From contig NZ_FKBR01000012.1 in assembly GCF_900078335.1 (NCBI RefSeq), forward strand, positions 205,618-269,617: 64,000 nt of DNA. Reading direction: 5' to 3'. This DNA comes from Bordetella trematum (GTDB lineage: Bacteria; Pseudomonadota; Gammaproteobacteria; Burkholderiales; Burkholderiaceae_B). The notes beneath the pieces were generated by a model. It ran no database searches and had not been told where the DNA came from. It saw only the letters and a program-made list of their open reading frames with translations. Made by a program: the position numbers and the translations under genes. The first letter of the stretch is position 1. Every line of letters starts with the position of its first letter. This document shows positions 6,482 to 60,279 of this stretch, one piece after another.

Positions 6482-6710
6482 GGGCTCGACGTCAGTCGTC
6501 GAAGCGGGCCCGGGTACTTGCGAAGTACGTAGCAAGGATGGTCTCAATACGAAGGGCGGTATGCTTGGACTAGAATCGCGGGCTCATCCTCGCGATTACC
6601 TTGGCGATGCACGCCAGGAACGTCCGTATTGTATTTAAAATATGGGACGATGCGGCACCATGCCTGAACCAGGTGTAAGCGCAAGAATCACCAGCAGATC
6701 GGAGAACAAT

Positions 6711-44016: not shown

Positions 44017-44053
44017 AGCCCGGCGCAGGCCAGCCTGCGCCGGGCTCTTTTTT
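44017..44053 (+). terminator. Intrinsic terminator of the prpB-acnD-Bug operon
   Basis: A 14-nt perfect inverted repeat (44017-44030 with 44033-44046, effective stem 12-13 bp) is followed by TTTTTT at 44048-44053. Strong rho-independent terminator, 60 nt after the Bug receptor stop. Confidence 0.93.
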
Positions 44054-44076: not shown

Positions 44077-45315
44077 TCAGGGCGCCAGCATGCGGGCAGC
44101 CTCTTTGGACAGGTCCACCCCCGGCGTATCGCGGTTGCGGGCGCCCCAGTTGTACGACTCCCCGCCGGTGATCTTCGCCGCGCAGGCGTCCAGGCTCTTG
44201 TCGCCGGTCAGGTCCACCACGTTGATGCGCAGGCGCGGCTTGCTGCGATGGATCTCGCGGGCGGTCGCGCAGACGTCCCCGCCGCAGCCATCCGGGCCGC
44301 CGGCAAAGACAAAGATCAAGGCATCGCGCTGCCTGCCATCCACTTTGGAAGCGGCCACCTTGAGGCTCTCGGCCAGGGCTGAAGCCCCCACGCTGGAGGT
44401 CTGGCGCAACTGCGTGAGCAAGGCGTCGCGCTGATTGGCCTTGTAAGGCCCGTTGTGCACCGGCGCGGCGCAGCTCTTGCCGGCGTAACGCACCAGATGG
44501 GTCTCGGTACGCGCAGGCAGGCCCCCGACGATGCGCTCGATCTCATGACGCGCAAGCTGCTGGCGCAAGGGCGAGTCCGCCCCAGCCGGCCGAGCCATGC
44601 CCGCCGAGGAGTCCAGCACGAAGACCAGTTCGGTGGGCCAGCCGGGCTGGGGATCGGGCTTGGGTTGCGGCTTGGGCTTGGGCGCAGGCGGTGGCTCGGC
44701 CACGGGCTCGGGCGGCGCAGGCTCGGGCGCAGGCGGCGCCACCGGTTCGGGCGCAGTGTGCACCACCGGCGCCGCCGGGGGCATGACGGGCGCCACCGGG
44801 CGACGCATCAGCCACCACCACAACAGCCCCAGCAACAAGGCCAGCAGCAACAGCGCCAGCAGCCACCACCACCAGCGCCGGCGCGGCACGACGACCGGCA
44901 CAGGCGCCGGCGCGCGCGGCTCGCTCCAGTGCGTGATCAGCAAGCGTCCTTCCACACTGTGCAGGCGCGCCGGATCCGGCGCGCTGCGCAGGCCGCGCAC
45001 CGTGGCGGCCTGCTCGCTCAATCCACGCGCCTCCAGGGTCTGCGCCAGGCTTTCCAGCTGCCCCTGATGCTCCGCATAGCGGGCCAACAGCTCGCGCTGC
45101 TGGTCGGCACTGAGGGCCGCGAAAGGCGTGACCTTGCCTTCCTGGCGGGTCCACCACTCAAGGGTCCCGTCGGCGCCGGCCCGGGCAATGGCGTAGGCCT
45201 GCGCCACGCTGGGCGGAAAATGACGCTCGATCAGGGCCAGGCCGTCGCTGAAGGCGCGCGCGGCCTGCTCGGCAGCCGCGCCATCGGTATTCGGCTCACG
45301 TAGAAAACGTTGCAC
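44077..45315 (-). CDS. Bitopic vWA-domain protein, N-terminus related to SrfA
   Basis: 412 residues from GTG 45315. Residues 1-145 are a cytoplasmic domain, 148-169 one membrane span (RRRWWWWLLALLLL...), about 172-224 a Pro-rich linker (KPKPQPKPDPQPG), and 225-412 a periplasmic von Willebrand A domain with MIDAS-type DSSAG at 234-238. Residues 38-95 (AQAYAIARAGADG..EWWTRQEGKVTPFAAL) align with SrfA 43-100 (AQHFAIPQPSADG..DWYAPQNGAVVPWAAA), so both share an N-terminal module. Last gene of the srf locus, after a hairpin-plus-T terminator at 45331-45357. Likely a complex component with metal-dependent binding; function unknown. Confidence 0.75.
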   Translation of the reverse strand: MQRFLREPNTDGAAAEQAARAFSDGLALIERHFPPSVAQAYAIARAGADGTLEWWTRQEGKVTPFAALSADQQRELLARYAEHQGQLESLAQTLEARGLSEQAATVRGLRSAPDPARLHSVEGRLLITHWSEPRAPAPVPVVVPRRRWWWWLLALLLLALLLGLLWWWLMRRPVAPVMPPAAPVVHTAPEPVAPPAPEPAPPEPVAEPPPAPKPKPQPKPDPQPGWPTELVFVLDSSAGMARPAGADSPLRQQLARHEIERIVGGLPARTETHLVRYAGKSCAAPVHNGPYKANQRDALLTQLRQTSSVGASALAESLKVAASKVDGRQRDALIFVFAGGPDGCGGDVCATAREIHRSKPRLRINVVDLTGDKSLDACAAKITGGESYNWGARNRDTPGVDLSKEAARMLAP

Positions 45316-45330
45316 GGTGATGCTCTATAG

Positions 45331-45357
45331 AAAAGCGGCGGCCCGCGCGGGCCGCCG
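45331..45357 (-). terminator. Internal terminator before the last gene of the srf locus
   Basis: A 22-bp perfect palindrome (45336-45357) followed on the minus strand by TTTT (45334-45331). It lies between the small lipoprotein gene and the last vWA gene, so expression of the latter may be reduced or depend on readthrough. Confidence 0.65.
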
Positions 45358-45361
45358 GGAT

Positions 45362-45871
45362 TTAAGGCGCCTGCAGCACGCTGGCGCGCAGGCGCTTGAC
45401 CATCTGCTCCAGCTCCTGGGCCTTGCGCTGACGCGCCGCGATCTCCGCATTGCCTGCCGAGGCCGTGATGGGCTGGGCCTGCAGTTCGGCCAGATCCTTC
45501 TCGGCCAGCTTCAGCTGGGCCTGCAGCTTCTTGTCGGTCGAGCCCTTCTGCTTGACCTGATCCAGCAGGCGACGGGTGCTGGAGACGACCTGGTCGCGAG
45601 CCTGTTGCTGCGCCTGAAGCGGCAGCTTATAGGAAGCCTGCTGGGCTTCCAGCGCGGCCAATGACTCGCGGAACAGGGCGTTCTCCTCCTGCGCGGCGCT
45701 CAGGCGCGCCTCCTTGCGATCGACACTTTCGCGATAGCCCCCGGAGGCATCGCACTGCATCTTGCGAAAGATGCTGACATCGGCATTGTTGGGATCGCAG
45801 GCGCCCGGCGGCAGACTGCCGCAACCGCCCAGGGCGGCAAGCATCAGGACAAGCAGATAACGCGGTTTCAT
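45362..45871 (-). CDS. Small coiled-coil lipoprotein
   Basis: 169 residues from ATG 45871, overlapping the previous stop as ATGA. The signal peptide is lipoprotein type (MKPRYLLVLMLAALGGC, lipobox LGGC, Cys17). The mature part has three further Cys/Gly-rich residues early (PGACDPNN, QCDASGGY), then a long charged coiled coil (about 50-165). Probably anchored in the outer membrane because residue +2 is Gly. It sits beside a second coiled-coil lipoprotein and the FGE-like gene, like lipoprotein TagQ beside TagR in T6SS loci. Unknown function. Confidence 0.75.
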   Translation of the reverse strand: MKPRYLLVLMLAALGGCGSLPPGACDPNNADVSIFRKMQCDASGGYRESVDRKEARLSAAQEENALFRESLAALEAQQASYKLPLQAQQQARDQVVSSTRRLLDQVKQKGSTDKKLQAQLKLAEKDLAELQAQPITASAGNAEIAARQRKAQELEQMVKRLRASVLQAP

Positions 45872-46605
45872 GCGGCTTTCCCCCAATCCAGCGAATCACG
45901 TTGCGTGGTCAGCACGCCCATGGCGTTGCGCAGCTTGGCCGCCTCGACCTGCATTTTCTCGATCTGGGCGTCGAGCTTCTTGATCTCGGCCTTGCTGCCG
46001 CCGGTGGTGGCGGCCGACACCTCGCGATAGGACGCGATCTTGTCGTCGATGTTGGCCTGCTCTTTCTTGATGCGCGCAATGTTGGCATCGATATTGCGCA
46101 ACTGCTTGCGCGCGGCCTCTTCCTGCATGCGGCCGGTTTTCACTTCGGCATTGAGCTGGGCCAGCTTTTGCTTGTCCGAGTCGATCACCGCCTGGATGGT
46201 CTGCGAGCGCTGCTGCAGTTTCTGGGTATCCTGTTCGACGTCCTGGGTCATGGCGTCCAGCATCTCACCGGTGGTCTTGTACTGGCTGCGACGATAGTCG
46301 AGGTAGTAGTTGGTGCCCATGGCCACGCCGCAGGCGGCCACGCCGGCGATGATGGCGCACATCGCCTTCTTGTTGCTGGGCGCGGTCAACAGGCAGGCCG
46401 CCACCCCCAGGGCCGCCGCCCCCGCGCACGCCTGGAAGCCCGAGCGGCTGAAGAACTCGGCATCATTGCCGGCGTCCAGGCGCGGGTCGACCTGGGCGCC
46501 GCCCAGCATGCTGCTGCCGGTGCTCGCGCACCCGGTGATGGCCAATGTGGCCGCCATCATTGCGGCCATCCAAGCGCGCCGCCAGCGCGCGATTCTGCTT
46601 TGCAT
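45868..46605 (-). CDS. TagQ-like lipoprotein with hydrophobic Gly/Ala segment and coiled coil
   Basis: 245 residues from ATG 46605, set by GGAG 6 nt upstream (another ATG at 46617 has no such site). The signal ends LAITGC, lipobox at Cys26 counted from this start. The mature part has ERSGYQAC-like FFSRSGFQACAGAAALG, a hydrophobic Ala/Gly/Cys-rich stretch (about 50-85) and a long coiled coil (about 95-240). This layout resembles TagQ, the outer-membrane lipoprotein of the T6SS TagQRST signalling module; the match is from memory of pattern, not a search. It follows the FGE-like gene by 16 nt. Confidence 0.65.
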   Translation of the reverse strand: MQSRIARWRRAWMAAMMAATLAITGCASTGSSMLGGAQVDPRLDAGNDAEFFSRSGFQACAGAAALGVAACLLTAPSNKKAMCAIIAGVAACGVAMGTNYYLDYRRSQYKTTGEMLDAMTQDVEQDTQKLQQRSQTIQAVIDSDKQKLAQLNAEVKTGRMQEEAARKQLRNIDANIARIKKEQANIDDKIASYREVSAATTGGSKAEIKKLDAQIEKMQVEAAKLRNAMGVLTTQRDSLDWGKAA

Positions 46606-46621
46606 CTGCTTCTCCATCCGG

Positions 46622-48223
46622 TCAGTTCTTGACCGCCTCTACACATGCCGCCAGCCAGGCGTCCTTGTTTATCTTCCAGGACTTGAGATAAGCCTGCTGG
46701 TGGCCCCAATACACATTCAGATAGGGCTGCAGCCCTTTGAGTTTTTCGTTCTGCTCCAGGATCCTGGAGATCACAGGCATCTGCCGCGCAATGTTTTCCT
46801 TGCCATAGAGCGTGGCCGCATCGACCAGGCTGCTGGCGTAGTACTGCGTCGTTTCCGCCAGTTCGTAGCGCCGCTTGTCGATGTTGCCCTTGTAGCCCAC
46901 GCACTCGGGCGAATCGGCGGATGCCTCGCACAGTTCCTTGTAGGTGTTCTCGACGAACTGCACATAGCGTCCGTCATCACGCAGCTTGGTGCACAGAAAG
47001 GCGCCCAGGTTGAGGCTGGCCCGGATGGCCTGGTCGCGCGCCTCCTCCTGGCGCTGGTTGCTGGCGCGCAGCTTGCCTTCCAGCTCCTTGAGTTGCTCCT
47101 TGAGTTTTGCGTCCTCGACCTTGCCGGCCAGTTCGCCGAGCTCCTGCACCGCCGCACGCCCCTTGCCCGCGGCGTCGTTGGAAACATCGCCGCTGCCCAG
47201 CTTGCGCCAGCTTTGCTCCAGCTGCTGGATGCGCTCGCGCGAGGTCATCTCGGGCGCGGCCACCACCCAGCGCATGCCCACGGCATTGTCGAGCTGTTCG
47301 CCATCCTCGCTGTAGAAGTTGCCTTCACGACGCGCCGCCGAACGGATCCCGTCTTCCGGCTTGCGAAAATCGCCGCCACGGATCACATAGGCTCCGGCTC
47401 CGCCATGCTGGCGATCCAGCTTGTTGAGCCGGAAGGCATCCTGGGTCATCTCGGCGGCATTGCCCAGCATGTCATGCAAGCCCAGGGGGTTGGGAGCCAG
47501 CAAGCCGACCAGTTGCAGCTTGCCATTGGAGGACTGGGCGCCGCCATACCACTCGTGGGCCTGCACGCCCTCAGGCATGGGGTAGCGCAGTTCGGCATAA
47601 GCCGCCGGATCGACGTTGGCGCCGCCGCGGGCCGCAAACTCCCATTCCACCTCGGTGGGCAGGCGCACGAAGCCCGTGATCCCGTCTTCCTTGGGCAGCG
47701 CATTCTTGTGATGCTGGCGCAGCCACACGCTGTAGCGGTGGGCCAGGTTGACCGCCTCGAACCAGCTCACGCCGGTGACCGGCAGCATGCCCTTGCGCGA
47801 CGGCGCCTCGCAACCCTTGCCCTCGTTCTCCAGCGTCTTGAGCGCCTGGTACTGCTGCCCGGTCAGCTCGTACTTGGCCATCAGGTAATAGCGCGCCGCG
47901 GCCCCCTTGCCCTGTTCGGTGAAGCTGCCGGCGATATGGGCCTGGCGACGCTGCTCCACGAAAGCAAACTGCTCCGACTCCTGCCCCACCATGACCGGCA
48001 AATCATCCAGCGGGCCGGCCGACGGCACCACGACTTTGCGAAACACCAGTTCGCCGCCGCAAGGCAGCGGCAATACCACGTCGCCGGCGGCCGGCTTGGG
48101 ATTGGTGTAGCGGGTGTCCCACTTGGCCGCCTCGGCAGCATGGACCGCCGAGCCCGCCATGAGGCCCATGGCCACAGCCAGGACTCGCCAGCCGGCCTGC
48201 GGCAGATTGGATTCAGATTTCAC
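46622..48223 (-). CDS. Periplasmic FGE/SUMF1-fold protein (TagR-like) with C-terminal helical domain
   Basis: 533 residues from GTG 48223, with GGAG 7 nt upstream and an 11-nt overlap with the permease gene. The signal peptide ends about residue 29 (SAVHA). The formylglycine-generating-enzyme/sulfatase-modifying fold spans about 50-330: PVTGVSWFEAVNLA, RLPTEVEWEFAARGG, GLHDMLGNAAEMTQDAF, YVIRGGDF. Residues 335-533 are charged helices with several Cys. No sulfatase gene is nearby. In T6SS the FGE-fold protein TagR activates PpkA; here it is encoded next to the same kinds of partners (permease, ATPase, vWA protein). A structural or sensory role is more likely than catalysis. Confidence 0.78.
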   Translation of the reverse strand: MKSESNLPQAGWRVLAVAMGLMAGSAVHAAEAAKWDTRYTNPKPAAGDVVLPLPCGGELVFRKVVVPSAGPLDDLPVMVGQESEQFAFVEQRRQAHIAGSFTEQGKGAAARYYLMAKYELTGQQYQALKTLENEGKGCEAPSRKGMLPVTGVSWFEAVNLAHRYSVWLRQHHKNALPKEDGITGFVRLPTEVEWEFAARGGANVDPAAYAELRYPMPEGVQAHEWYGGAQSSNGKLQLVGLLAPNPLGLHDMLGNAAEMTQDAFRLNKLDRQHGGAGAYVIRGGDFRKPEDGIRSAARREGNFYSEDGEQLDNAVGMRWVVAAPEMTSRERIQQLEQSWRKLGSGDVSNDAAGKGRAAVQELGELAGKVEDAKLKEQLKELEGKLRASNQRQEEARDQAIRASLNLGAFLCTKLRDDGRYVQFVENTYKELCEASADSPECVGYKGNIDKRRYELAETTQYYASSLVDAATLYGKENIARQMPVISRILEQNEKLKGLQPYLNVYWGHQQAYLKSWKINKDAWLAACVEAVKN

Positions 48224-49421
48224 GCAGACTCTCCGCAGGTTGGATCCGGCGCGCGCTGGCCGCGCCCAGCAGGCAGGCCAGCAGCGCCACGGCCAGCGTC
48301 AGGCCCAACGCCGCCAGCGCATGCCAGGGCGTGATATGGCTGATGAAGCGGCCGGTCTCCTGGCTCAGGCCAAGCAGATGGTTGAACAGGCTGCTGCCGG
48401 CGGCATACAGCCCCAGCCCCAGCACAAAGGCGATGGCCGTCAGCACCAGCGCCTGGATGAGGATGTAAGCGCTGATCGCCCCGCCCTGCAGGCCCACCAG
48501 GCGCAACAGCGCCAGGTCGCGGCGCTTGCGCCGCACATTGGCCAGGAAGGCCCCGCCCAGCGAAGCCAGGCAGCCCAGCACCGCCGTGCCGGCGATCACG
48601 CCGAAGACGGTCGACAACAGGTGATCGATGGCCTTGACGTTGCGGATCTCGGCCAGCCGGCTGGACGTCTCGATCCGCTGGCTGTTCAGGCGCTGCTCCA
48701 GCGCCTGCACGGCGTCGATGTCACGGGCATAGATGCGCGCCTTGGAAAAACGACGCTGGGCCTGCGAGGCGGGCCGGCCCTCGTCCACGCCCAGCGACGC
48801 CACGGCAAAGCCGTCGCGATACCATTCGATATCCTGCAGCAGCGCGGGGGCCACGAAACCGGCGGCGCGCGGATAGGCTTGCGGCGCCAGCACCGCGCTG
48901 ACCCGCAGGCCATGCATGACGCGCTGCTCGCGCCCGTCCAGACGCCGCAGAATGCGCAGACGCACCGCATCCCCCGCCCGCACGTCCAGTTTCCGGGCGG
49001 CCTGCGCGCTGAGCACCACGTCGCCGGCCGTCAGGCCCGGGTGGTCCACGCCGGCCAGCAAAGGGTCGCCCGCCGCCGTGGGCAGGATCTCGGCGCTGTC
49101 GACAAAGCGCCCGCCGGCCACGAAATCGGCCTGGGTATTGAGCGAGCGCGTCAACCCGATCACAAAGCCGGCCTGCGGCTCGCGCGCCAGGGCATCGACC
49201 CAGTCCTGATCATAGCTGCCGCTGCTCAGCATGCGGATTTCGAGGTTGCGCGGGTCATTGAGCAACTGATCCTGCAGGGCGCTGACTACGCCATGCTTGA
49301 GGCCGAACAACAGCAGCAGCGGCGCGATCACCGCCACCAGCGAGGCCACCATGCACAGCGATACCAGCCAGTCGTGACGCAGATCGGCGCAGGACAGCCG
49401 CGCCACCTGAAGGACTTTCAT
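48213..49421 (-). CDS. FtsX-like ABC permease (TagS-like)
   Basis: 402 residues with four membrane spans: one at about 20-44, then a periplasmic MacB/PCD-type domain (about 45-265), then three spans (about 270-300, 320-350, 370-395). The C-terminal half has the FtsX-type RRKRRDLALLRLVGLQGGAI coupling motif. LolCE/MacB-type permeases act mechanically on periplasmic proteins or lipoproteins rather than importing solutes. Its partner ATPase gene overlaps by ATGA. The position between ATPase and FGE-fold protein matches tagT-tagS-tagR order. Confidence 0.85.
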   Translation of the reverse strand: MKVLQVARLSCADLRHDWLVSLCMVASLVAVIAPLLLLFGLKHGVVSALQDQLLNDPRNLEIRMLSSGSYDQDWVDALAREPQAGFVIGLTRSLNTQADFVAGGRFVDSAEILPTAAGDPLLAGVDHPGLTAGDVVLSAQAARKLDVRAGDAVRLRILRRLDGREQRVMHGLRVSAVLAPQAYPRAAGFVAPALLQDIEWYRDGFAVASLGVDEGRPASQAQRRFSKARIYARDIDAVQALEQRLNSQRIETSSRLAEIRNVKAIDHLLSTVFGVIAGTAVLGCLASLGGAFLANVRRKRRDLALLRLVGLQGGAISAYILIQALVLTAIAFVLGLGLYAAGSSLFNHLLGLSQETGRFISHITPWHALAALGLTLAVALLACLLGAASARRIQPAESLREI

Positions 49422-50122
49422 GGGGCCGCTCCCGCGAGGGTGAAGACGCTTTTTCGCGGGCCCAGGCGCGCGGCCAGCTCGGGCAGGCCGAACTCGCGCA
49501 CCAGGGCGCGATCGTGCGACACGACCAGGCAGGCCATCTCGCGACGTCGCGCCAGCTCCAGAAACAGGCCGAACAGGCGGCGCGCATTGTCCGGATCCAG
49601 CGCTGAGGTCGGTTCATCGGCCAGCAGCAGCTGCGGACCGTGCGCCATGGCGCGCACGCAGGCCACGCGCTGGCGTTCACCGATCGACAGGGCCGCCGGC
49701 ATCTTGTGCAACAGCCCGCCCAGGTTGAGGGCTTCGATGGCATAGTCGAGATGCGCATCGCGCAGCGCCAGGCCAGCCAGCCGGCGCGGCAGCACCAGAT
49801 TCTCGAAGGCGCTCAGGTAAGGCAGCAGACCGCCCGACTGCAGCACGAAGCCCAGCTGGCGCGCGCGCAGTCCCGCCAAGGCGCGATCATCGCCGCGCAG
49901 CGCCCACTGGCCGACGCTGGCGCAATCGCCCAGCCGGTAGCTGCCCAGCCGCTGCGGCGTCAGCAGCAAACCCACGCCTTCGAGCAGCGTGCTCTTGCCG
50001 CAGCCGCTGTCGCCGACGACCGCCACCACTTCGCCGGCCCGCAGGCGCAACGCCGGCAGCTCGACCTCGTAGGCATCGGCGCCGGCGCCGCGCCGCAAAT
50101 GCAAATCCTCGATTGCCAGCAT
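49418..50122 (-). CDS. LolD-like ABC ATPase (TagT-like)
   Basis: 234 residues. Walker A GDSGCGKST (about 37-45), signature LSIGERQRV in place of LSGGQ, Walker B LLLADEPTSALD, H-loop VVSHD. Single-domain LolD/MacB-type ATPase for the FtsX-like permease encoded immediately downstream (ATGA overlap). It begins 10 nt after the vWA gene. Degenerate signature residues (Ile for Gly, Glu for Gln) occur in some LolD relatives, so activity is still expected. Confidence 0.88.
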   Translation of the reverse strand: MLAIEDLHLRRGAGADAYEVELPALRLRAGEVVAVVGDSGCGKSTLLEGVGLLLTPQRLGSYRLGDCASVGQWALRGDDRALAGLRARQLGFVLQSGGLLPYLSAFENLVLPRRLAGLALRDAHLDYAIEALNLGGLLHKMPAALSIGERQRVACVRAMAHGPQLLLADEPTSALDPDNARRLFGLFLELARRREMACLVVSHDRALVREFGLPELAARLGPRKSVFTLAGAAP

Positions 50123-50132
50123 CAGAGCCGTC

Positions 50133-52127: not shown

Positions 52128-52139
52128 GCGGCGCCTCGA

Positions 52140-53066: not shown

Positions 53067-53075
53067 GTTGTTCGA

Positions 53076-55826
53076 CTATGCCTGCGTGAAGCCTTGCAGA
53101 ATGCGCCCCAGCGCCTGGTTCTGTTCCAGCGAGATGTCCCGGCCGGCCGCGTGGCCGGCATTGTTGAGCACCACATCGGTCAGGCCGGTCAGCCAGTAAC
53201 CGGCGTATTGCGCGTTGGTGTCCAGCGGCTGCGCATCCAGATCCGGCAGCCCGGCCGCATCCAGGCGCGTGGTGGCGGTGAACAGATGCTGTTTATTGAC
53301 CAGGCTGAGCGGACGCTGCGCCTGGTCAATCTCCAGGAAACCCAGCCAGGCCAGAAAATCATGCAGCGCGAGCTGGGCGCGCAACACCTGGCGCATGGCC
53401 AGCTGTTCACGCCGGGAGCTGCTGTCCTGACGCTGCGTCAGGCGCGCCTCGATCTGCTCCTGCAACTGCATCCGGTGCGCGGCGGTCACCAGTTCCTCGA
53501 CCAGCATGTCGGCCAGTTCCGGCGCGATGCCCAGGCTGGCCAGCAGGTGCGTGCGCTGCGGCAGTTCGCGCAGATGCGCCACCCAGCGCTGGAACACCGC
53601 CTGCGCATAGCGGTGGTCCGCCGTCTTGAGCGCCGGCTGGCGCGCGCCGGCCGGGGCGCTGGCCGGCGCCGCCCCGAACGGGCCGGGTTCGGCGGCGAAG
53701 GGGTTGGGTTCGGCCGCAAAGGGATTGGGCTCGGCGGCGGCAAAGGGGTTGGCTGCGCTCGCCGCCGCGGCAAAGGGATTCGACTCGACCGGCGCCTCGG
53801 CCGCCGCCGGCGACACCGCTTCGTCCTCGCCTTCCGGTGTCTTCAGTCCGTTCAGGTAGAGGTCGCGCAGGTCTTCGCGCTGCAGCTCCAGGGCATGCAT
53901 CAGCTCGGGGATGGCCTTGCGCGCACCGTACAGCGCCTGCGCCAGCTGTTGGCCGCGCTGTTTCTTGAGCGCCAGGTCATCGCCGTCGATGCTCTGGTGA
54001 TACTGGGCCAGACGATGCAGCACGCCGGTCTTGCCTTCGCGCTCGTCCTGCAACTGCTGACGCAGGCGATCGAGCTTGAAGTCGATGTCGACGATGCGGC
54101 TCAGGCCTTCGGCCAGGCGCGACATGCCGCCGTCGTTTTCCACCAGCACCGCGTCCCAGGCCTGCTGGGGCTGCGCCACGCGCTGCCGGATACTGGGGTG
54201 GGCCACGAAGTCCCGGCCCAGGGCATCCAGCCGCGCACGGCGCTGCGGATCGATTTCCTCGCGCTGGCCGTTGAGCCGGATGAAGGAGATCTCCATGCCG
54301 GGCTTGCGCACCAGGTAGACGTTGTTGAAAGGCACCTCGCCCGCCGGCCCCGTTGACCAGGCCTTCATGAAACCCAGGCCGCCATAGCGGTCTTCCATGG
54401 TACCGTGGATCATGCCGTACCAGCTTTCGTCGATCTGAGCGCCATCGGTCAGCCCCAGCATGCGCTGCAGCCGCAGGTCAAACTTGGTGATGGCCCAGAA
54501 CAGGCCGCAGGCCCGCCCGGCGCGCGCCTGCGGCGAATCGCCCTGGCTGCGATCGACCCAGCGTTCCAGCACCTTGGCGATGTCACTGACATCGCTTTGC
54601 TCATGCGTGCACATCACCAGGCCATTCATGGCCTGGGTATCGGTATAGCGCTCGAACAGATAGGCCACCTTGCCGCGCAGCAACAGCTGCGCCACCGGAT
54701 TGCCCTCGGCCGGCACATCGCTCAGCTCGCGCGCCGTGTAGCGCCCGCGATAACCGGGAAAATCAAGCAGGTCGACGCTGGCCACGCAAGGCTCGCGCGG
54801 TTCGTCGCGCAGGGGAAACACCAGTTCCAGCGTCAGCACGGCCAGGTGCTGCAGGTCGACGCTGACCGGCGCGGCCAGGCGCCCCTGCACGCAGGGACGG
54901 GCCTCGATACGCTTGCCCTCGTTCGGACGCAGCAGCACATCCACCGACATGATGCTGTCGCGGCCGTACTGCAGGCGGCCATCGACCGTGGAGGTCAATG
55001 CCTGCAGCGGCAGAAAGGCGGTCTGCGCGTAATCCAGCCGGCCCAGGCTGGCCGCGATGTCGGCATAGCAGCGGGTCAGTTCGGGAATCTCGCCCCACAG
55101 CAGCGAAAACAGCTCCGCGCGCTCGTGGGCGGCCAGACGTGGCGCCAGGCGCATGGCCTGCTGCCAATAGCCGTTTTCCAGCGCATGCAAGGGCCGCTCG
55201 AACGACACCCGGGCGTAATCCCACAACGACACCACATCGTCGGCGTCCACGCCTGCCTGCACCGCGCCCGCCTCGCGCCCCTCGAAGCGGCTCAGCACCC
55301 GTTCGATGCGCGTCTCGTCCAGGCGATACTCGACCCGGTTCTGGTCGAAGTCGTTGAACCAGCTGTTGCACAGAATCTTGGCCAGGTCGACCTCGCGCAT
55401 CAGGCGCACCTCGATCGGGAAGGCGGGATCCTCTGCGGGCTGCGCCGCGCGCGTGAAGCGGGTCACCAGGCCGGTGGCTTCCTTGCCGGTGCCGGGCGGG
55501 TTCACATGACTGATGAAATTGACGCGCTGGCCGCCGTAATCGGTCTCGAACTGGCCATCGGCATCGGCGCCCAGCGCCGAGATCAGGAACGACTTGCCGG
55601 CCTGCGAGACACCGAAAAAGCCGATCGCCATGGGGGTGGCGGCGGCCTGCTGCAGATCGCGGCTCTTGTTGCGCATCTGGCGCAACTGGCGCAGCAGACT
55701 ATCGGCGTCGTTGTCCAGACGCCTGGAGTCGCCGCGCACCTGTTCCACCCACTCGATGGCCTGGCCGGCGCCATCCAGGACGGCGCCCCACTCGCGCGCC
55801 AAGAGAGCTTGTTTTTCCGTCGTCAT
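53076..55826 (-). CDS. srfC: SrfC-family protein: dynamin-like GTPase with NPF-rich linker
   Basis: 916 residues. After an N-terminal helix bundle, GVSQAGKS (72-79) is the G1/P-loop. VDLLDFPGYRGR has DFPG (355-358) as G3, and WAITKFD (TKFD 447-450) as G4, so this is a GTPase of the large dynamin-like kind. Helical regions follow (about 560-665). An Ala/Pro-rich linker (678-730) holds four NPF motifs at 683, 693, 701 and 708, and then a helical C-terminal domain. SrfC is annotated as a virulence factor in Salmonella (srfABC, under SsrB). Start ATG 55826, 4 nt after srfB. Cytoplasmic, perhaps membrane-remodelling. Confidence 0.85.
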   Translation of the reverse strand: MTTEKQALLAREWGAVLDGAGQAIEWVEQVRGDSRRLDNDADSLLRQLRQMRNKSRDLQQAAATPMAIGFFGVSQAGKSFLISALGADADGQFETDYGGQRVNFISHVNPPGTGKEATGLVTRFTRAAQPAEDPAFPIEVRLMREVDLAKILCNSWFNDFDQNRVEYRLDETRIERVLSRFEGREAGAVQAGVDADDVVSLWDYARVSFERPLHALENGYWQQAMRLAPRLAAHERAELFSLLWGEIPELTRCYADIAASLGRLDYAQTAFLPLQALTSTVDGRLQYGRDSIMSVDVLLRPNEGKRIEARPCVQGRLAAPVSVDLQHLAVLTLELVFPLRDEPREPCVASVDLLDFPGYRGRYTARELSDVPAEGNPVAQLLLRGKVAYLFERYTDTQAMNGLVMCTHEQSDVSDIAKVLERWVDRSQGDSPQARAGRACGLFWAITKFDLRLQRMLGLTDGAQIDESWYGMIHGTMEDRYGGLGFMKAWSTGPAGEVPFNNVYLVRKPGMEISFIRLNGQREEIDPQRRARLDALGRDFVAHPSIRQRVAQPQQAWDAVLVENDGGMSRLAEGLSRIVDIDFKLDRLRQQLQDEREGKTGVLHRLAQYHQSIDGDDLALKKQRGQQLAQALYGARKAIPELMHALELQREDLRDLYLNGLKTPEGEDEAVSPAAAEAPVESNPFAAAASAANPFAAAEPNPFAAEPNPFAAEPGPFGAAPASAPAGARQPALKTADHRYAQAVFQRWVAHLRELPQRTHLLASLGIAPELADMLVEELVTAAHRMQLQEQIEARLTQRQDSSSRREQLAMRQVLRAQLALHDFLAWLGFLEIDQAQRPLSLVNKQHLFTATTRLDAAGLPDLDAQPLDTNAQYAGYWLTGLTDVVLNNAGHAAGRDISLEQNQALGRILQGFTQA
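53676..53780 (-). repeat. NPF-motif repeat in SrfC linker
   Basis: Encodes residues 683-717 with four copies of Asn-Pro-Phe-Ala-Ala and one degenerate Gly-Pro-Phe. Units are spaced 10, 8 and 7 residues apart. The nucleotide copies differ slightly, so this is a selected peptide pattern rather than fresh slippage. Confidence 0.85.
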
Positions 55827-55830
55827 GATG

Positions 55831-58800
55831 TCAGTTCTTCACGCTGCCGCTGTCCAGCCAGTAGGCGTCCTGGCCCAGACCGGCGTGCAACAGGGTATTC
55901 ATCTCGAAGCGCACCTGGCTTTTCTGGATCGCCACGTCGCCCACCCCTTCGACCCGCTCGATGGTCAGCCGGTCGCTGATAAGCCCTTGCCTGCGCTCGC
56001 GTTCGCTGGGCTGCGCCACGCTGAAATACACCCGCGCCTGCGGATCGGGCAGGCTGGCGTCGCGCTCCTGGTTCTCGCGGTAGCGCTTCTGCCAGGCCGG
56101 CTGGAAGCCCAACTGGTAGATGGGCGCGGCCGGCCAGCGCTCGGCGGCCAGCTGGCGATAGCCCAGACGGCTGTCGGCGTGCAGCACATAAGGCCGGGCA
56201 TCGCCCTGCGCGTCGCGCGGCAGTTCGATGCAGCCGTCTTCCGGCGGCAGCCCCTGCGGCGTGCGCGTGGTGATATCGGCCAGCAGCACGTCATCGGTCT
56301 TGATGAGGTTGTTGCTGTCGATCCGGCCAAAGTAGCGGATCAGCGGCAAGGGCCGGATGCGCGAGGGACTGAAATAGAAGTTGGGCAGACGGCGGTTCTC
56401 GGTCAGCCAGCACACCATCGCGCCCACCGAGGCGGTGGTCTTGGGATCGGCGATCACCCCTCCCTTGTGAAAGGGGAACCAGGTACCGCTGCGATAGTTC
56501 TGCATCGGCAGGATGCGCCCTGACGGCAGCGCCGCCAGGCTGCGGATCAGGGTCTGCACGCCCGGCAGGCAGGAAGGCCGCCCGGTCAGCAGCAACACGT
56601 CGCAGTCGTAGTGCGCCACCACCTCGCTCAGGGAGGTCAGGGTCTTGCAGATATCCAGCCCGTCCTGCAGGAACAGGCCGTGCAACTGGGCCGGGTCGAA
56701 GCTCAGGCGGATCGCGCCCAGATCGAGCACGGTCGGCCCGCCCAGCTCGCTGCTCAGGTTCTTGGAGACGAAATCGCGCACCGGCTGGCTGATGACCTTG
56801 TCCTTGCCCAGCCACTCGGCCCAGGTCGCCGTCTTGCGCTGGCTGCCCTGCTCCAGGCTGTAGCGCTCGTATTCGGCCAGCAGGGCCAGCGCCAGCGGAT
56901 GGAACACCTGCAGCGTCAGCTGCTGGCGCAGCACCATGTCGCCGGCGCCCAGGCTGCGCGCGCCGCAGATGCGGTCGGCCAGATCGGCCGGCAACGCCAC
57001 GCCTTTCTCTTTGAGCGCCTGCTCGAACGAAGGCAGGACGAACTGACGGATGACATCGAGCACGATATCGTCGCCGGCCACCTTGAAGCCATCGCGAAAG
57101 CGCTGCACCGGCACGATGGGCGCGTTGCTGCCATCGCCTGCGCCGTCGCGCTGCAGCGCGTAATCGTTGATCACCAGATCGGTCGTGCCGCCGCCGATAT
57201 CGATGGAGGCCACCGTGATGCGTTCGCGGTCGGGCTTGCCGGGGCGCGCCAGGGCGTCGAAGAACTCTTCCGGGTGGCCGCCGAAATGCTCGCCCACCTC
57301 GGTATACAGGTAAACCAGCTGCGCGCACGTGGCCTCGTCCCACTTGACCACCACCTTGGGCAGCGGCACCTTCAGGCGCGAAGCGTCGGCGCTGTCTTCC
57401 AGCGGGTCTTCGTCATACTGGCCGGCATGCCAGCCCATGCTTTTCCACAACAAGCCCAGCGCCTGCTGGACGCGATCGCGGAAAATGCTGCGCTCGACCT
57501 GCGGCGTGCTGGGCGGCACGGTCAGAATGACCGTGCGCAGCCAGCGCGAGGTCGCGGCGTTTTCCTTGTCCTTGCGGTACAGGATGCTGTTGATCTGCGT
57601 GACGGCCTGCGCAAACACCTCGTTGAGCATCAGCGTCATCAGCGAGGAGCGCGAATACTTGGTCTCGAAGACCGACTCCACGCCCTTGGTCACGTACAGC
57701 GCGCGGCCCAGGTCGTCGATCAGATCGGCCAAGGGCTTGAGCGTGGCCATGGGCTCCTGCTGGCCCTTCAGGCTGCTGGTATTCAGGCGCCAGACCTGAT
57801 CATAGGGACGCTCGTCCCACAGGTAACGCTTGGGGCTGGACAGGCCGGTCGAGCCTTCGGTGCCCTCGCGCAGCGCGGCCAGCTTGGCGGCCTCGCTGCC
57901 CACCCGCGTCATGCTGCCCCAGGCGAAGGCATCATGGCGACCGCTCTGCATCGACCACTGATCCATGCCCAGATTGATCTTGGCGAACTCCACGCGCGAC
58001 TCGAACGGATGGTCGTAGACCTGTTCGGGCGCGCTCATGTCGCGCAACACCAGATGGGTATTGCCGTGCAGGCCCCGATTGTTCTGCTCCGGATCCTCGA
58101 CCAGGATGCCGCAGCAACGTGAATTGCCCACGTCCAGCACCAGGTCCACCGCGATGGGCTTGCCCGCGCCGATGGCGTTGCGCAACTTGACCTTGACGGT
58201 CGGCACCGCCACGCGCGGCTCCAGGTTCGGATGGGTGGTCGGCGCCGGGCCGCGCAGCAGGCTCAGCAGGTTGAGGTAGTGCGCGAAATGACGCTTCTGA
58301 TTCAGATCCTGCTGAATGTCCTCGCGTTCGCGCTTGTCGGCCTGGCAGCGGTCGACGAACACTTCCGTCAGCCACTCCTTGACCCACACCTGATCGAGAA
58401 ACCACTGCATCTCATTCAGATGCACCGCCAGGCGGAAGGCCTGGCCATTGCGCAGGTCCTCGTCGTTGGGCGCCAGATAAGCCACGCCATCGCGCTTGGG
58501 CATGATGCGCGTGTCGAAGGCCAACGTCAGGCGATGGGTGTGGCCGTGCTCGTCGGGCGTGTCCAGCTTGACGATGCGCAGGCGCGCCCAGTTGTTCGGG
58601 CCCTGGTCATAGCGCGTGGGCGACAGATAGCGGAAAAAGGGCACCGGCAGCCACTGGCCATCCAGATACGTCAGGCTTTCCTTCATGCTGACGTCATCCA
58701 GGCCCGGCCCCGGATGTCCCGGACTCTGTTTCTCGGGCTCCGACTCGAAGTAGAGCTTGCCGTCGCGGTCCTCGAACAGACGCGCCAGCATGCCATTACC

Positions 58801-58932
58801 CAGCAGGGCGAACTGGCCGGCCGGCTCGCGGCGCAGGTCCAGGGTGACGGCCAGATCCAGGAACTGGATGCCGGTGTCGCCAAACAGATCGACAGTCTGG
58901 GATTCGGTATAGGTATCGACTTTGGGCAGCAT
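55831..58932 (-). CDS. srfB: SrfB-family protein: actin/Hsp70-fold ATPase
   Basis: 1033 residues, the expected family size. Phosphate-1 motif DVGNSRC (267-273), phosphate-2 motif SIDIGGGTTD (576-585) and adenosine motif LLLTGRPSCLPG (about 780-791) mark an ASKHA-type nucleotide-binding fold; GGTTD is nearly DnaK-identical. The first 250 residues are SrfB-specific. No signal peptide or membrane span. In Salmonella srfB is the middle gene of srfABC. It lies 15 nt after srfA and 4 nt before srfC, so the three are coupled. Probably an ATP-driven scaffold or assembly factor; biochemical role not known to me. Confidence 0.88.
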   Translation of the reverse strand: MLPKVDTYTESQTVDLFGDTGIQFLDLAVTLDLRREPAGQFALLGNGMLARLFEDRDGKLYFESEPEKQSPGHPGPGLDDVSMKESLTYLDGQWLPVPFFRYLSPTRYDQGPNNWARLRIVKLDTPDEHGHTHRLTLAFDTRIMPKRDGVAYLAPNDEDLRNGQAFRLAVHLNEMQWFLDQVWVKEWLTEVFVDRCQADKREREDIQQDLNQKRHFAHYLNLLSLLRGPAPTTHPNLEPRVAVPTVKVKLRNAIGAGKPIAVDLVLDVGNSRCCGILVEDPEQNNRGLHGNTHLVLRDMSAPEQVYDHPFESRVEFAKINLGMDQWSMQSGRHDAFAWGSMTRVGSEAAKLAALREGTEGSTGLSSPKRYLWDERPYDQVWRLNTSSLKGQQEPMATLKPLADLIDDLGRALYVTKGVESVFETKYSRSSLMTLMLNEVFAQAVTQINSILYRKDKENAATSRWLRTVILTVPPSTPQVERSIFRDRVQQALGLLWKSMGWHAGQYDEDPLEDSADASRLKVPLPKVVVKWDEATCAQLVYLYTEVGEHFGGHPEEFFDALARPGKPDRERITVASIDIGGGTTDLVINDYALQRDGAGDGSNAPIVPVQRFRDGFKVAGDDIVLDVIRQFVLPSFEQALKEKGVALPADLADRICGARSLGAGDMVLRQQLTLQVFHPLALALLAEYERYSLEQGSQRKTATWAEWLGKDKVISQPVRDFVSKNLSSELGGPTVLDLGAIRLSFDPAQLHGLFLQDGLDICKTLTSLSEVVAHYDCDVLLLTGRPSCLPGVQTLIRSLAALPSGRILPMQNYRSGTWFPFHKGGVIADPKTTASVGAMVCWLTENRRLPNFYFSPSRIRPLPLIRYFGRIDSNNLIKTDDVLLADITTRTPQGLPPEDGCIELPRDAQGDARPYVLHADSRLGYRQLAAERWPAAPIYQLGFQPAWQKRYRENQERDASLPDPQARVYFSVAQPSERERRQGLISDRLTIERVEGVGDVAIQKSQVRFEMNTLLHAGLGQDAYWLDSGSVKN

Positions 58933-58947
58933 GATCGGTACGCCTTA

Positions 58948-60279
58948 TCAGGGCTGGGGCTGGCGCATGGTCAGCGGAAACTGCTCGGCGCCGTAGTTGC
59001 CGGTGCAGGCAGCGACCTGCGCACCGTTGGGCTGGCATCGGATCGCCGGCATGTCATAGGTGGAGCCATCACTGCAGGCGGCGGCCGCGCCATTGCTGAT
59101 CATCAGCGCCCCGCCGTTCATGGCCGCGCTGACCGGCGCGCGGCATTGCACGCCGTTGTGGCGGTCTAGGGTCACGTGGCCTTCGCCCTGCTTGAATTGA
59201 TACTGCAGGCGCAACGGCTCGCCCGTATTGCGATCCTGGATGCCGGCGCGCACGCGCCAGTCGCCATTGAGAAAATCGGCTTTGCCATCGGGCAGTTGAG
59301 GCGGAATCGCCAGACCCGGCGCCTCGCCCGCGGGCAAAGCCGGAGGATGCGCGCCGGCGGGCTGGGCCGGGATGGCCGGCGCCGGCCCGGACGGCAAGCC
59401 AGGCGTGACCGGGTTGCCGGCCACGGGCGCCGCTGCAGCAGGCATCGCAGCGGCCTGCGACACCGACGGCGCCACCGCCGCGCTGCCGGCCGGGGCCGCC
59501 GGAACGACCGTCGCCGCGCCCGGCGCCGTGGCGCCCGGCACGCCAGCCACCGGCGCAGTCACTGCCGGCAACCCGACCTCGGGCAGCTTCACCGACGGCA
59601 CATCGACCGACGGCAGACTGACCGCAGGCAGCGCCGGCGTCGTTGGCGTGCAGGCACGCAGGCCAAAGAACAGCAAGGCCAGCAGCAACAGCAATGGCAG
59701 CAGCCACAGCCACCAGCGCCGCCACCAGGGCTGGCGCACGACCTCGGCGGCCAGCGGCGCGGCGGCAACGGGAGCTGCTGCGGCCGCCACCGGGCGCGCT
59801 GCAGCCAGAGGCGCGGCGCCCAAGGCGTGCAGGGGGGCCAGGTTGCGATCGGCGCCGGCGTTCAGAAACCCCCAGAAGGTGACCACCGGCGTGCCGTCGA
59901 CCAGATAGACATGGCTGCTGTCGGGATGGTGCAGCACCCAGCGCAGCAACTGGGCAAACAGCGAGTCGCTGCCCTCGCCCAGGCTGGCCCGCAAGGCCTC
60001 GACCTCCTGGCGCACCTGGTCCAGCCGCGCCGTGGCGGCCGCGCGCTCGCCTTCGGTGGCCGCCGCCCAGGGCACCACCGCGCCGTTCTGCGGCGCGTAC
60101 CAATCGATGACACGGCCATCGGCGCTGGGCTGGGGGATGGCGAAATGCTGCGCCAGGTCGGCGCGCCGCCGCTTGAGGGTAGAGAGGATCTGCGGCGCCG
60201 CCAGGTAGACCGCCTGGCCGCGTTCGCCCAGGGCGTCGTATTGATCTATTTTTTCACTACGAAGCTTGACGCCCGACAT
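58948..60279 (-). CDS. srfA: SrfA-family bitopic membrane protein
   Basis: 443 residues. Cytoplasmic N-terminal domain 1-150 (LRSEKIDQYDALGERGQAVYLAAPQIL..), an Ala-rich hinge, a single span at 189-207 (WWLWLLPLLLLLALLFFGL), a periplasmic Pro/Val/Ala-rich linker (about 211-320) with short repeats of LPSVDVPSVKLPEVGLPAV type, and a C-terminal domain (about 335-443) with four Cys likely to form disulfides. Residues 43-100 resemble residues 38-95 of the vWA protein at the other end of the locus. First gene of the locus; its leader contains a hairpin and T-tract. Identified by the following srfB and srfC and by layout. Confidence 0.8.
   Translation of the reverse strand: MSGVKLRSEKIDQYDALGERGQAVYLAAPQILSTLKRRRADLAQHFAIPQPSADGRVIDWYAPQNGAVVPWAAATEGERAAATARLDQVRQEVEALRASLGEGSDSLFAQLLRWVLHHPDSSHVYLVDGTPVVTFWGFLNAGADRNLAPLHALGAAPLAAARPVAAAAAPVAAAPLAAEVVRQPWWRRWWLWLLPLLLLLALLFFGLRACTPTTPALPAVSLPSVDVPSVKLPEVGLPAVTAPVAGVPGATAPGAATVVPAAPAGSAAVAPSVSQAAAMPAAAAPVAGNPVTPGLPSGPAPAIPAQPAGAHPPALPAGEAPGLAIPPQLPDGKADFLNGDWRVRAGIQDRNTGEPLRLQYQFKQGEGHVTLDRHNGVQCRAPVSAAMNGGALMISNGAAAACSDGSTYDMPAIRCQPNGAQVAACTGNYGAEQFPLTMRQPQP

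Follow-up and report, generated by a model that had tools for sequence, protein, structure and literature searches.

The srfABC genes have been labelled variously as a virulence operon, as a toxin and even as surfactin genes, and to our knowledge there is no settled mechanism for them. Published work reports that a Salmonella srfC mutant and a srfABC deletion are impaired in swarming and not in swimming (PMC4219756), and that SrfA, B and C co-immunoprecipitate (PMC6950479). The TagQRST-PpkA relay, the threonine phosphorylation pathway (TPP) of the H1-type T6SS, is described as sensing outer-membrane damage (PMC11881912; PMC10482370). That srf and tag genes are linked is already on record: a 2013 paper on host-associated Deltaproteobacteria described it (PMC3608642), and a 2019 paper on Xenorhabdus mentions it (PMC6950479).

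Here we analyse a locus of Bordetella trematum in which srfABC is followed by eight further genes. It lies in a stretch of 64,000 nucleotides, called the window below. The interpretation that we favour, and to which we give slightly better than an even chance, is that the locus would be a TagQRST-type envelope-damage relay with SrfABC as its output.

RESULTS

Organization of the locus

A sequence-only reading of the window had reported eleven leftward, closely packed genes, and this description holds: the eleven ORFs, at unchanged coordinates, are all on the minus strand between 44077 and 60279, with intergenic gaps of -19 to +46 bp (15, 4, 9, 12, 10, -4, -11, 4, -19 and 46 bp from A to K).

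A, 58948..60279, minus strand: SrfA, 443 aa, bitopic (NF040486, 347 bits; TM helix; 242 bits with a SrfA-N profile that was built with this row among others)
B, 55831..58932, minus strand: SrfB, 1033 aa, predicted Hsp70-type ASKHA ATPase with an extra N-terminal part (PF07520; motifs; predicted fold)
C, 53076..55826, minus strand: SrfC, 916 aa, predicted dynamin-type GTPase (PF10139; Walker A Lys; predicted fold)
D, 52140..53066, minus strand: bitopic protein, 308 aa, TM 161-179 (hydropathy; position between C and E)
E, 50133..52127, minus strand: secreted vWA protein, 664 aa, PpkA periplasmic half without kinase (Pfam VWA; PpkA alignment)
F, 49418..50122, minus strand: TagT-type ABC ATPase, 234 aa (Pfam ABC_tran; profile match at the TagT position)
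G, 48213..49421, minus strand: TagS-type FtsX-like permease, 402 aa (Pfam FtsX; profile match at the TagS position)
H, 46622..48223, minus strand: TagR-type FGE-fold periplasmic protein, 533 aa (Pfam FGE-sulfatase; profile match at the TagR position)
I, 45868..46617, minus strand: coiled-coil lipoprotein, 249 aa, at the TagQ position (weak TagQ match; lipobox ITGC by eye)
J, 45362..45871, minus strand: second coiled-coil lipoprotein, about 169 aa from the likely ATG (lipobox LGGC by eye)
K, 44077..45315, minus strand: bitopic vWA protein, 412 aa (SrfA family, 35.7 bits; VWA_2 over cut-off; TM 152-170)
Hairpin, 44017..44046, no strand assigned: strong hairpin with T tract 3' of K, likely the operon terminator (13-pair stem; consensus match only)

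TM helices, one each in SrfA, D and K, were predicted with a hydropathy script, and the lipoboxes and the signal peptide of E were read by eye. Pfam cut-offs were passed by VWA (genes 5 and 11, i.e. E and K), ABC_tran, FtsX and FGE-sulfatase. Gene 10 (J) probably starts at the ATG at 45871, five codons inside the longest ORF. The locus is not a foreign island by composition (GC 0.676, versus 0.679 in the left flank and 0.646 in the right one). A role in anti-phage defence was also discarded: PADLOC, run on ten of the eleven proteins (F excluded), returned weak matches, of the coiled-coil kind for I and J and with LeoBC for SrfC.

SrfA, SrfB and SrfC

The three Srf proteins are encoded side by side, and each exceeds the cut-off of its family model (SrfA with 347 bits for a curated cut-off of 150, SrfB with 1277 bits and SrfC with 1020 bits). 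They had been described as bitopic, as bearing ASKHA motifs and as a GTPase, respectively, which is borne out by the family models, the one TM helix of SrfA and the fold matches. SrfA is made of a cytoplasmic SrfA-N domain (about residues 1-188), a TM helix (189-207), a Pro/Ala linker and a small periplasmic domain. The phosphate motifs of SrfB, DxGN, DxGGGTTD and GRP, are invariant in 25/25 rows. When the SrfB model was compared with PDB folds, 49 of the 50 matches listed were titled Hsp70/Hsp110 or a complex with one; TMt went up to 0.67 with Hsp70 nucleotide-binding domains and was 0.42-0.48 with near full-length DnaK. By its predicted fold, SrfB is an Hsp70-type ATPase.

SrfC keeps the Walker A Lys in 26/26 rows, and in its G4 motif, [TN]KxD, Thr is found in 26/26, Asp in 25/26 and Lys in 10/26. 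The first 28 ranks of its fold search all belong to the dynamin superfamily, five of these at an E-value of 0.001 or better, and the best Foldseek E-values are 2.8e-6 (SynDLP) and 3.3e-6 (BDLP). Low TM-scores to dynamins (0.12-0.22 for the first ten matches, normalised by query length) mean that the domain arrangement differs; the model also has a low-confidence linker at 662-731. As modelled, SrfC is a dynamin-type GTPase by fold, and the ATPase and GTPase reading of the pair thus gains support from structure prediction. At sequence level, SrfC, SrfB and E had no significant match in the PDB. A conserved role for the NPF repeats of SrfC was rejected, since just 3 of the 26 rows have them, namely the window and two others of its genus.

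Genes E to I are collinear with the TagQRST-PpkA relay

The proposal of a Tag-like envelope relay proved correct and can be made more precise: genes 5-9 (E-F-G-H-I) follow the order PpkA (periplasmic half)-TagT-TagS-TagR-TagQ of an H1-type T6SS cluster. In that cluster, L076, the full order is TssM-PppA-PpkA-TagT-S-R-Q, TagT, TagS and TagR being named there from their place next to PpkA and to a TagQ equivalog. The E profile covers PpkA 373-992 with 595 bits, and E is 36% identical to PpkA over 642 residues, i.e. the whole periplasmic half. Where PpkA has its kinase, E carries a signal peptide (by eye); its sole Pfam domain is a vWA domain over the cut-off, in agreement with the secreted vWA protein first described, and the metal-site motif D-x-(S/T)-x-S is found in 16/16 rows. 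At the TagT, TagS and TagR positions of L076 the scores are 251, 358 and 308 bits, respectively. With two further loci included, the F profile gives 251 and 252 bits (L076, L077), the G profile 358-372 bits and the H profile 307-316 bits over profile positions 21-521 (both L076-L078). F and G do not reach the cut-offs of the LolD and LolCE equivalog models (128 versus 308 bits and 24 versus 362 bits). A PDB search with H retrieves FGE-fold and PorK/GldK-type entries, and its match to formylglycine-generating enzyme is at fold-family level only. I is weakly TagQ-like by sequence (18 bits, E 0.0011, with the TagQ model, whose cut-off is 300; 40-43 bits by profile). J has homologues in 22 loci, the window included. 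Genes 9 and 10 (I and J) begin with the lipobox-like stretches noted above, consistent with the two coiled-coil lipoproteins that had been called. No FHA or PP2C domain was found among the eleven proteins in the Pfam search.

One alternative is that the vWA proteins are a structural scaffold like TssR and that the product of the locus is a trans-envelope channel or an adhesion device, not a signalling relay. TssR belongs to the TssNQOPR complex of the Bacteroidota T6SS (PMC10781749), and one locus, L107, has two TssR-type vWA proteins beside SrfB/SrfC. However, E of the window matches the PpkA sensor half nearly full length and has no TssR match in Pfam, and F, G and H have their matches at the TagT/S/R positions; we consider such a scaffold decidedly improbable.

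The single-pass proteins D and K

The TM helix and the VWA_2 match of K agree with its initial description as a bitopic vWA protein, which had missed a SrfA-N-like domain. This domain is followed by TM 152-170, a Pro linker and the periplasmic vWA domain. It scores 35.7 bits (E 6.5e-9) with the SrfA family, below the cut-off of 150, and 29 bits (E 3.5e-7) with the SrfA-N profile. These similarities mark K as a distant SrfA paralogue, the cytoplasmic domain being common to both. The vWA metal site of the window K is degenerate, with DSSAG in place of the expected DxSxS, which is present in 15 of 20 K rows. Elsewhere, the SrfA-N domain precedes a TM helix and then a vWA or subtilase domain. Matches to D sit between C and E in mapped Srf loci and are weak (19-44 bits) in L100, L101, L105, L106, L108 and L110. 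D was rejected as a SrfA-N carrier, its cytoplasmic part showing no relation to that domain by hhalign (probability 0.1).

Distribution of the eleven genes

A scan of genome contigs with a SrfB alignment found carriers; a single-protein scan of the contigs with SrfC found no relative. Sub-cut-off matches are excluded from the SrfB counts (G237, G298, G577), as are weak vWA-only matches of 20-26 bits from the E counts (G563, G663, G665, G747). The eight accessory genes might have proved unlinked to srfABC in other genomes, and they did not: co-occurrence and order are conserved, the eleven-gene order being identical in 15/15 intact loci of the family and in two loci outside it. Among 151 genomes of the own family, all 17 SrfB carriers have E, and one further genome has E without SrfB. 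In 199 genomes of another genus (f55), which we take to be Pseudomonas, SrfB and kinase-free E occur in the same 21, with a gap of 3746-3803 bp.

Nevertheless, the relay is not required by SrfABC in general, because SrfB occurs without E alongside in 13 of 20 other loci of the phylum (12 with A-B-C only, one with A-B-C-D) and in 14 of the 28 named loci, whose list includes three short contigs (L102, L111, L116) that are uninformative downstream and were dropped from the counts. A-B-C stands alone in 12/13 f58 loci and in 7/7 named Enterobacterales loci. Linkage, the NTPase folds and Tag-likeness are thus supported; a single physical machine made of the eleven proteins would be a further step, and the SrfB loci without E and the relay without Srf speak against an inseparable one.

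Another possibility is that SrfABC and the Tag-like genes are two independent modules, placed in one operon for co-expression. The many loci with SrfABC only would fit, as would G406 (E to J) and G031 (E-F-G), where the relay or part of it is found alone. Against this, K combines a cytoplasmic domain of SrfA type with a vWA domain in the periplasm and so bridges both sets, and the distances for SrfB and SrfC are correlated with the E, G and H distances (r 0.87-0.91, a value without housekeeping control). The correlation is weaker for F (r 0.64-0.71), which may reflect the choice of a different ABC ATPase at some loci. Overall we find two separate modules unlikely.

Kinase and T6SS genes

The own genome is rated 100% complete; searches for TssC, a T6SS sheath gene, and for TssM found neither, and no Pkinase match in it exceeded the Pfam cut-off (one reached 23 bits). 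TssC is present in 15 of the 23 E-bearing SrfB carriers searched and was not found in the other 8, the own genome included; in the f55 genus, 16 of 21 SrfB carriers have it. Among the 199 genomes of that genus, SrfB (21) and a kinase-sized E (73) were not found together, a count to which a scoring caveat applies. The distance between the kinase-sized E and TssC is 13.6-15.1 kb in 10/10 genomes searched (10 of the 73), whereas SrfB is at least 42 kb away from TssC in all 11 carriers with both on one contig. A relay without kinase, present also in genomes seemingly without T6SS, suggests a different envelope response machine.

These distributions bear on two other explanations. The relay could control a T6SS encoded elsewhere, its linkage to srfABC being incidental, as the TPP homology and the frequent presence of TssC (15/23 and 16/21 carriers) might indicate. 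This is hard to reconcile with the 8 carriers in which TssC was not found, the missing kinase, the distance to TssC and the fact that E tracks SrfB in two samples, and it would be inapplicable to the own genome unless the T6SS genes fall in an assembly gap; we regard it as very improbable. Alternatively, SrfABC could be an exported tripartite toxin, with the Tag-like genes controlling its release. This we think improbable: the vWA gene here is without kinase domain, the search for TssC drew a blank in the own genome and in 7 more E-bearing carriers, the predicted folds of SrfB and SrfC are those of Hsp70- and dynamin-type NTPases, and SrfA has a TM helix. Besides, the named carriers include the free-living Methylococcus, Terasakiella and Vreelandella. 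On the other side, Xenorhabdus SrfABC is reported to be cytotoxic to insect and HeLa cells, the biochemical activity described there for SrfABC, which counts against a relay-output reading (PMC6950479), and the authors of the 2013 study proposed that PpkA could trigger SrfC export (PMC3608642).

DISCUSSION

A proposed relay with SrfABC as output

Our favoured interpretation, the envelope-damage relay with SrfABC as output, draws on gene identity, order and linkage, collinearity with TPP, absence of a kinase, the failure to find TssC in several carriers and two NTPase fold classes obtained by modelling. By analogy with TagQRST, the signal would be outer-membrane damage. The two lipoproteins (I and J), the FGE-fold protein H and the ABC pair (F and G) would pass it on to E, the vWA protein in the periplasm. 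E corresponds to the PpkA sensor half minus the kinase, and there would be neither kinase dimerisation nor T6SS firing. We infer that E would act via the single-pass proteins SrfA, D and K, whose cytoplasmic domains would control the SrfB ATPase and the SrfC GTPase at the inner membrane. The output would likely be local membrane remodelling or repair, or the assembly of an envelope structure.

It is conceivable, although we are doubtful, that SrfABC serves as output of a widespread class of envelope responses, in which SrfB and SrfC would be steered from the periplasm via exchangeable SrfA-N/TM adaptors with a vWA or protease domain at their end, and that PpkA-TagQRST may be an offshoot whose output was swapped for a kinase. 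The offshoot idea comes from the E/PpkA tree, where the PpkA sensor half (3 rows) groups with an Srf-linked Desulfovibrio E (SH-aLRT 99) and the AU test rejects an exclusive clade of Srf-linked E that takes in G031 and leaves out PpkA and G406 (p 0.0015); the tree is quick and unrooted, with long branches, and the tested group was named after the first tree was seen.

A homologous, collinear sensor arm offers a concrete hypothesis for srfABC, namely a response to outer-membrane damage. It further points to TagQRST as a sensor module connectable to non-T6SS outputs, in which case tag genes alone would be no evidence of T6SS regulation.

Comparison with known systems

We did not find in print the absence of the kinase, the apparent mutual exclusion of Srf-linked and kinase-sized E or the NTPase folds. 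One close precedent is the srf/tag neighbourhood of Deltaproteobacteria, which has the same kinds of genes, i.e. srfABC, tagQ, ppkA and mostly tagR/S/T. Its ppkA is described there as a T6SS-pathway kinase (PMC3608642), whereas the counterparts in the window and in Desulfovibrio L110 (655 aa), which are other loci than those of that study, are kinase-free. As for the bacterial dynamin-like proteins (BDLP, SynDLP, Leo), SrfC resembles them in predicted fold, with the weak LeoBC match, but differs by its low TM-scores, its unconserved G4 lysine and its Hsp70-type partner. With TPP, the locus shares clear homologues of E, F, G and H over full or nearly full length. In contrast to TPP, it is without kinase, FHA and PP2C, and no TssC or TssM was found in its genome; SrfB/SrfC would stand in for the kinase output, and lipoprotein J and three single-pass proteins are added. 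Finally, the srfABC operon of Salmonella, Xenorhabdus and Yersinia has the same SrfA, SrfB and SrfC, which here are followed by eight more genes.

Organization of the locus

The sequence-only reading had described eleven tightly spaced leftward genes at 44077..60279, and this description holds: window 44077-60279 is filled by eleven ORFs, all on the minus strand, with gaps ranging from -19 to 46 bp (from A to K: 15, 4, 9, 12, 10, -4, -11, 4, -19 and 46 bp).

Features of the locus; both hairpins are consensus matches only
A, minus strand: SrfA (NF040486, 347 bits)
B, minus strand: SrfB (PF07520, 1277 bits)
C, minus strand: SrfC (PF10139, 1020 bits)
D, minus strand: bitopic protein
E, minus strand: secreted vWA protein
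F, minus strand: ABC ATPase
G, minus strand: FtsX-like protein
H, minus strand: FGE-fold protein
I and J, minus strand: lipoproteins
K, minus strand: bitopic vWA protein
45336-45357: GC hairpin resembling a terminator, between J and K
44017-44046: strong hairpin with a T tract, 3′ of K

Hairpin consensus matches numbered 20, compared with a shuffle mean of 9; promoter-like sites, sought along with them, were not found. Given the hairpin between J and K, the expression level of K may differ from that of the other genes.

Conservation of the gene order

Of the 151 genomes in the own family, 17 carry SrfB; over the cut-off, it occurs in 21 of 398 genomes of the phylum sample and in only one of 250 in the order sample, namely the genome under study. 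For every other SrfB-bearing genome, 16 in the family and 20 in the phylum sample, we examined the neighbourhood. The claim that the eleven families are linked in a conserved order stands for the family, since A-B-C-D-E-F-G-H-I-J-K is kept in the window and in 15/15 intact family loci (in the sixteenth, G025, it is divided between two contigs), and for two of the 20 phylum loci (G760 and G414), but not for 12 others, all from group f58, which have A-B-C alone. By our reading of gene content and related named loci, rather than by a taxonomic label, f58 corresponds to Enterobacterales and the f55 genus considered below to Pseudomonas. In G670 and G502 all gene kinds are present with a K-like gene ahead of A, G502 being on two contigs. 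Three loci of group f90 run from B to H with no SrfA adjoining B; in two of them I and J lie beyond a gap of ∼1.9 kb, occupied in G733 by an esterase gene, and in the third a transposase gene interrupts. In G527, B, C and D are accompanied by two A-like genes, and E-J are absent.

A scan with the SrfB alignment gave at least 28 named loci, mapped with profiles built from the locus genes. E adjoins SrfB/SrfC in 10 (Pseudomonas jessenii, P. defluvii, Vreelandella, Terasakiella, Arboricoccus, Rhodopila, Tistlia, Methylococcus, Anaerobiospirillum and Desulfovibrio intestinigallinarum, whose contig stops at its E locus). Seven Enterobacterales have A-B-C alone, seven further loci are without E (Enhydrobacter, one Desulfovibrio, one deltaproteobacterium, three Bacteroidota and one Phycisphaerae), one (L107) has TssR-type vWA proteins in place of E, and three are short contigs.

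Over 23 loci, distances correlate with those of SrfB at 0.95 for C, 0.90 for H, 0.88 for G, 0.87 for E and 0.65 for F, the maxima of 500 permutations being 0.53-0.57, with species history not controlled.

A putative sensor half related to PpkA-TagTSRQ

The Tag-like reading is supported by comparison with locus L076, ordered TssM-PppA-PpkA-TagT-TagS-TagR-TagQ, in which Pfam recognizes IcmF, PP2C and Pkinase with a weak VWA, and TagQ scores 505 bits; PppA, TagT, TagS and TagR are named there from position and the usual gene order. The E, F, G and H profiles match PpkA, TagT, TagS and TagR in the same order, with 595, 251, 358 and 308 bits, and I resembles TagQ weakly (40-43 bits). The E profile spans residues 373-992 of PpkA, directly beyond its TM at 325-343, and window E is 36% identical to PpkA across 642 residues. 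The metal-site motif D-x-(S/T)-x-S is present in 16/16 E sequences.

In a 32-row tree of E, PpkA clusters with the Srf-linked E of Desulfovibrio. A clade of Srf-linked E plus that of G031, excluding PpkA and G406, was rejected (AU p 0.0015), in a tree that is unrooted with long branches and for a group chosen after the first tree.

Two forms of E not found together in one genus

Among 199 genomes of a single f55 genus (that of G662), SrfB is present in 21, and kinase-free E (frame of 656-710 aa, >1000 bits) in exactly those 21, at 3746-3803 bp from SrfB. Kinase-sized E (frames of 877-1317 aa, up to ∼600 bits) is found in 73 others, a class called from frame length except in L076 (kinase domain by Pfam) and in L077 and L078 (by alignment), and including G845 and G816, where E is in pieces. 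None of the 73 is a SrfB carrier (hypergeometric P 3.5e-5, phylogeny ignored), although, with at most six E candidates scored per genome and scoring complete in 6/21 carriers, a second copy could escape in 15. Neither form occurs in 105/199.

Within the own family, 18/151 genomes have E: all 17 with SrfB, plus G031, where only E-F-G is present (L117:13829-17797) and the 35 kb searched gave no profile match to H-J or Srf. In the phylum sample, strong kinase-free E occurs in nine genomes, eight of them with SrfB, and 13/21 SrfB carriers are without E. The ninth, G406 (L079:9520-18684), has E-F-G-H-I-J followed by an S41 peptidase gene, in a genome without SrfB and a relay without kinase; the peptidase is perhaps a third relay output.

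T6SS and kinases in SrfB carriers

TssC was sought in 27 of the 37 distinct SrfB carriers, 23 of these with E, and was not found in eight, all E-bearing (the own genome G000, G108, G089, G097, G074, G760, G733 and G669). TssM was not found in these eight and G036, among 12 searched. In six genomes searched for kinases, none scored over the cut-off in G000, G089, G074 and G760 (sub-cut-off matches of 20-29 bits), and G097 and G108 have one each, with frames of 474 and 480 aa, neither being E. It would seem from the TssC and TssM searches that T6SS is not needed by every E-bearing SrfB carrier.

In the f55 genus, TssC is present in 16/21 SrfB carriers and was not found in five. SrfB and TssC are at least 42 kb apart (linear coordinates) in the 11 with both on one contig; in G814 and G843 they would be closer if the record is circular, yet coordinates still place them >42 kb apart. 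In the other five TssC-bearing carriers they are on separate contigs. TssC was found in 10/10 kinase-sized-E genomes searched (of 73), 13.6-15.1 kb from E.

Folds of SrfB and SrfC

Fold models bear out, as predictions, the reading of SrfB as an ATPase and SrfC as a GTPase, the former Hsp70-type and the latter dynamin-type. The SrfB model (pLDDT 84.2, pTM 0.88) matches 193 PDB chains at E 0.001 or better (best 2.7e-15); of the best 50, 49 are titled Hsp70/Hsp110 or a complex containing one, and the other is a ciliary-complex chain whose identity is not in the title. TMt to Hsp70 nucleotide-binding domains reaches 0.67, and the phosphate-motif residues are invariant (25/25). For SrfC (pLDDT 83.8, pTM 0.78), dynamin-superfamily chains occupy ranks 1-28, five at E 0.001 or better, led by SynDLP (2.8e-6) and BDLP (3.3e-6); TM-scores to dynamins are low, so the domain arrangement differs from theirs. 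The Walker A Lys is present in 26/26 sequences and the G4 Lys in 10/26. Four NPF repeats lie in a low-confidence SrfC linker (residues 683-710, window 53697-53780) and recur in 3/26 rows, i.e. the window and two of the same genus.

Single-pass candidate adaptors

A profile of SrfA-N, the cytoplasmic N-terminal domain of SrfA, built from 17 rows, matches the SrfA rows, 17/19 downstream K rows (missing L023 and L025) and the K ahead of A in G670. A single TM helix follows most matches, with none over threshold in six rows, and the periplasmic part varies: SrfA domain, vWA (K; L091, L100) or subtilase (L107, L113, L114). By hhalign, the cytoplasmic part of D showed no relationship to SrfA-N.

The SrfA-N-TM-subtilase (S8) fusions, immediately 3′ of SrfC (L113:15553-18420, L114:15601-18624, L107:16574-19009), come from three MAGs, two of Bacteroidales and a third whose title reads Acetofilamentum. 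Two TssR-type vWA proteins, one with the TssR C-terminal domain, lie near SrfB/SrfC at L107:913-3252 and 4761-7244. Upstream of another SrfB are five consecutive SrfA-N-TM proteins (L109:2082-9571), whose remaining parts gave no Pfam match. An FHA and trypsin-like protease protein is close to a Desulfovibrio SrfB/SrfC pair (L103:17644-18753), and in L086 a trypsin-like gene adjoins SrfA-N genes.

Relation to known systems

According to one study, srfBC is linked with tagQ, ppkA and mostly tagR/S/T in host-associated Deltaproteobacteria, only one of which has T6SS machinery genes (PMC3608642); another mentions srf-tag linkage for Xenorhabdus (PMC6950479). Outer-membrane damage is sensed by TagQRST-PpkA, as two papers state (PMC10482370, PMC11881912). 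In Salmonella, a srfC mutant swarms poorly and swims normally, and loss of the srfABC operon affects swarming only (PMC4219756). Enterobacterial srfABC are called surfactin genes in PMC5683332 and PMC3946378, apparently a mix-up with the srf genes of Bacillus. Among the titles and abstract openings searched, none reports the lack of a kinase, the exclusion between the two forms of E or the SrfB/SrfC folds, which is weak evidence of absence, most subscription journals being uncovered.

We infer a route from damage to SrfB/SrfC through E and the adaptors K, SrfA or D: I/J, H and F/G would sense damage and signal to E, from which the signal would pass to K, SrfA or D and on to SrfB and SrfC. The likeness to the TPP relay of the H1-type T6SS lies in the collinearity of E-F-G-H with PpkA-TagT-TagS-TagR of L076; the difference is that L076 PpkA has a kinase, whereas window E has no kinase and begins with a signal peptide, judged by eye.
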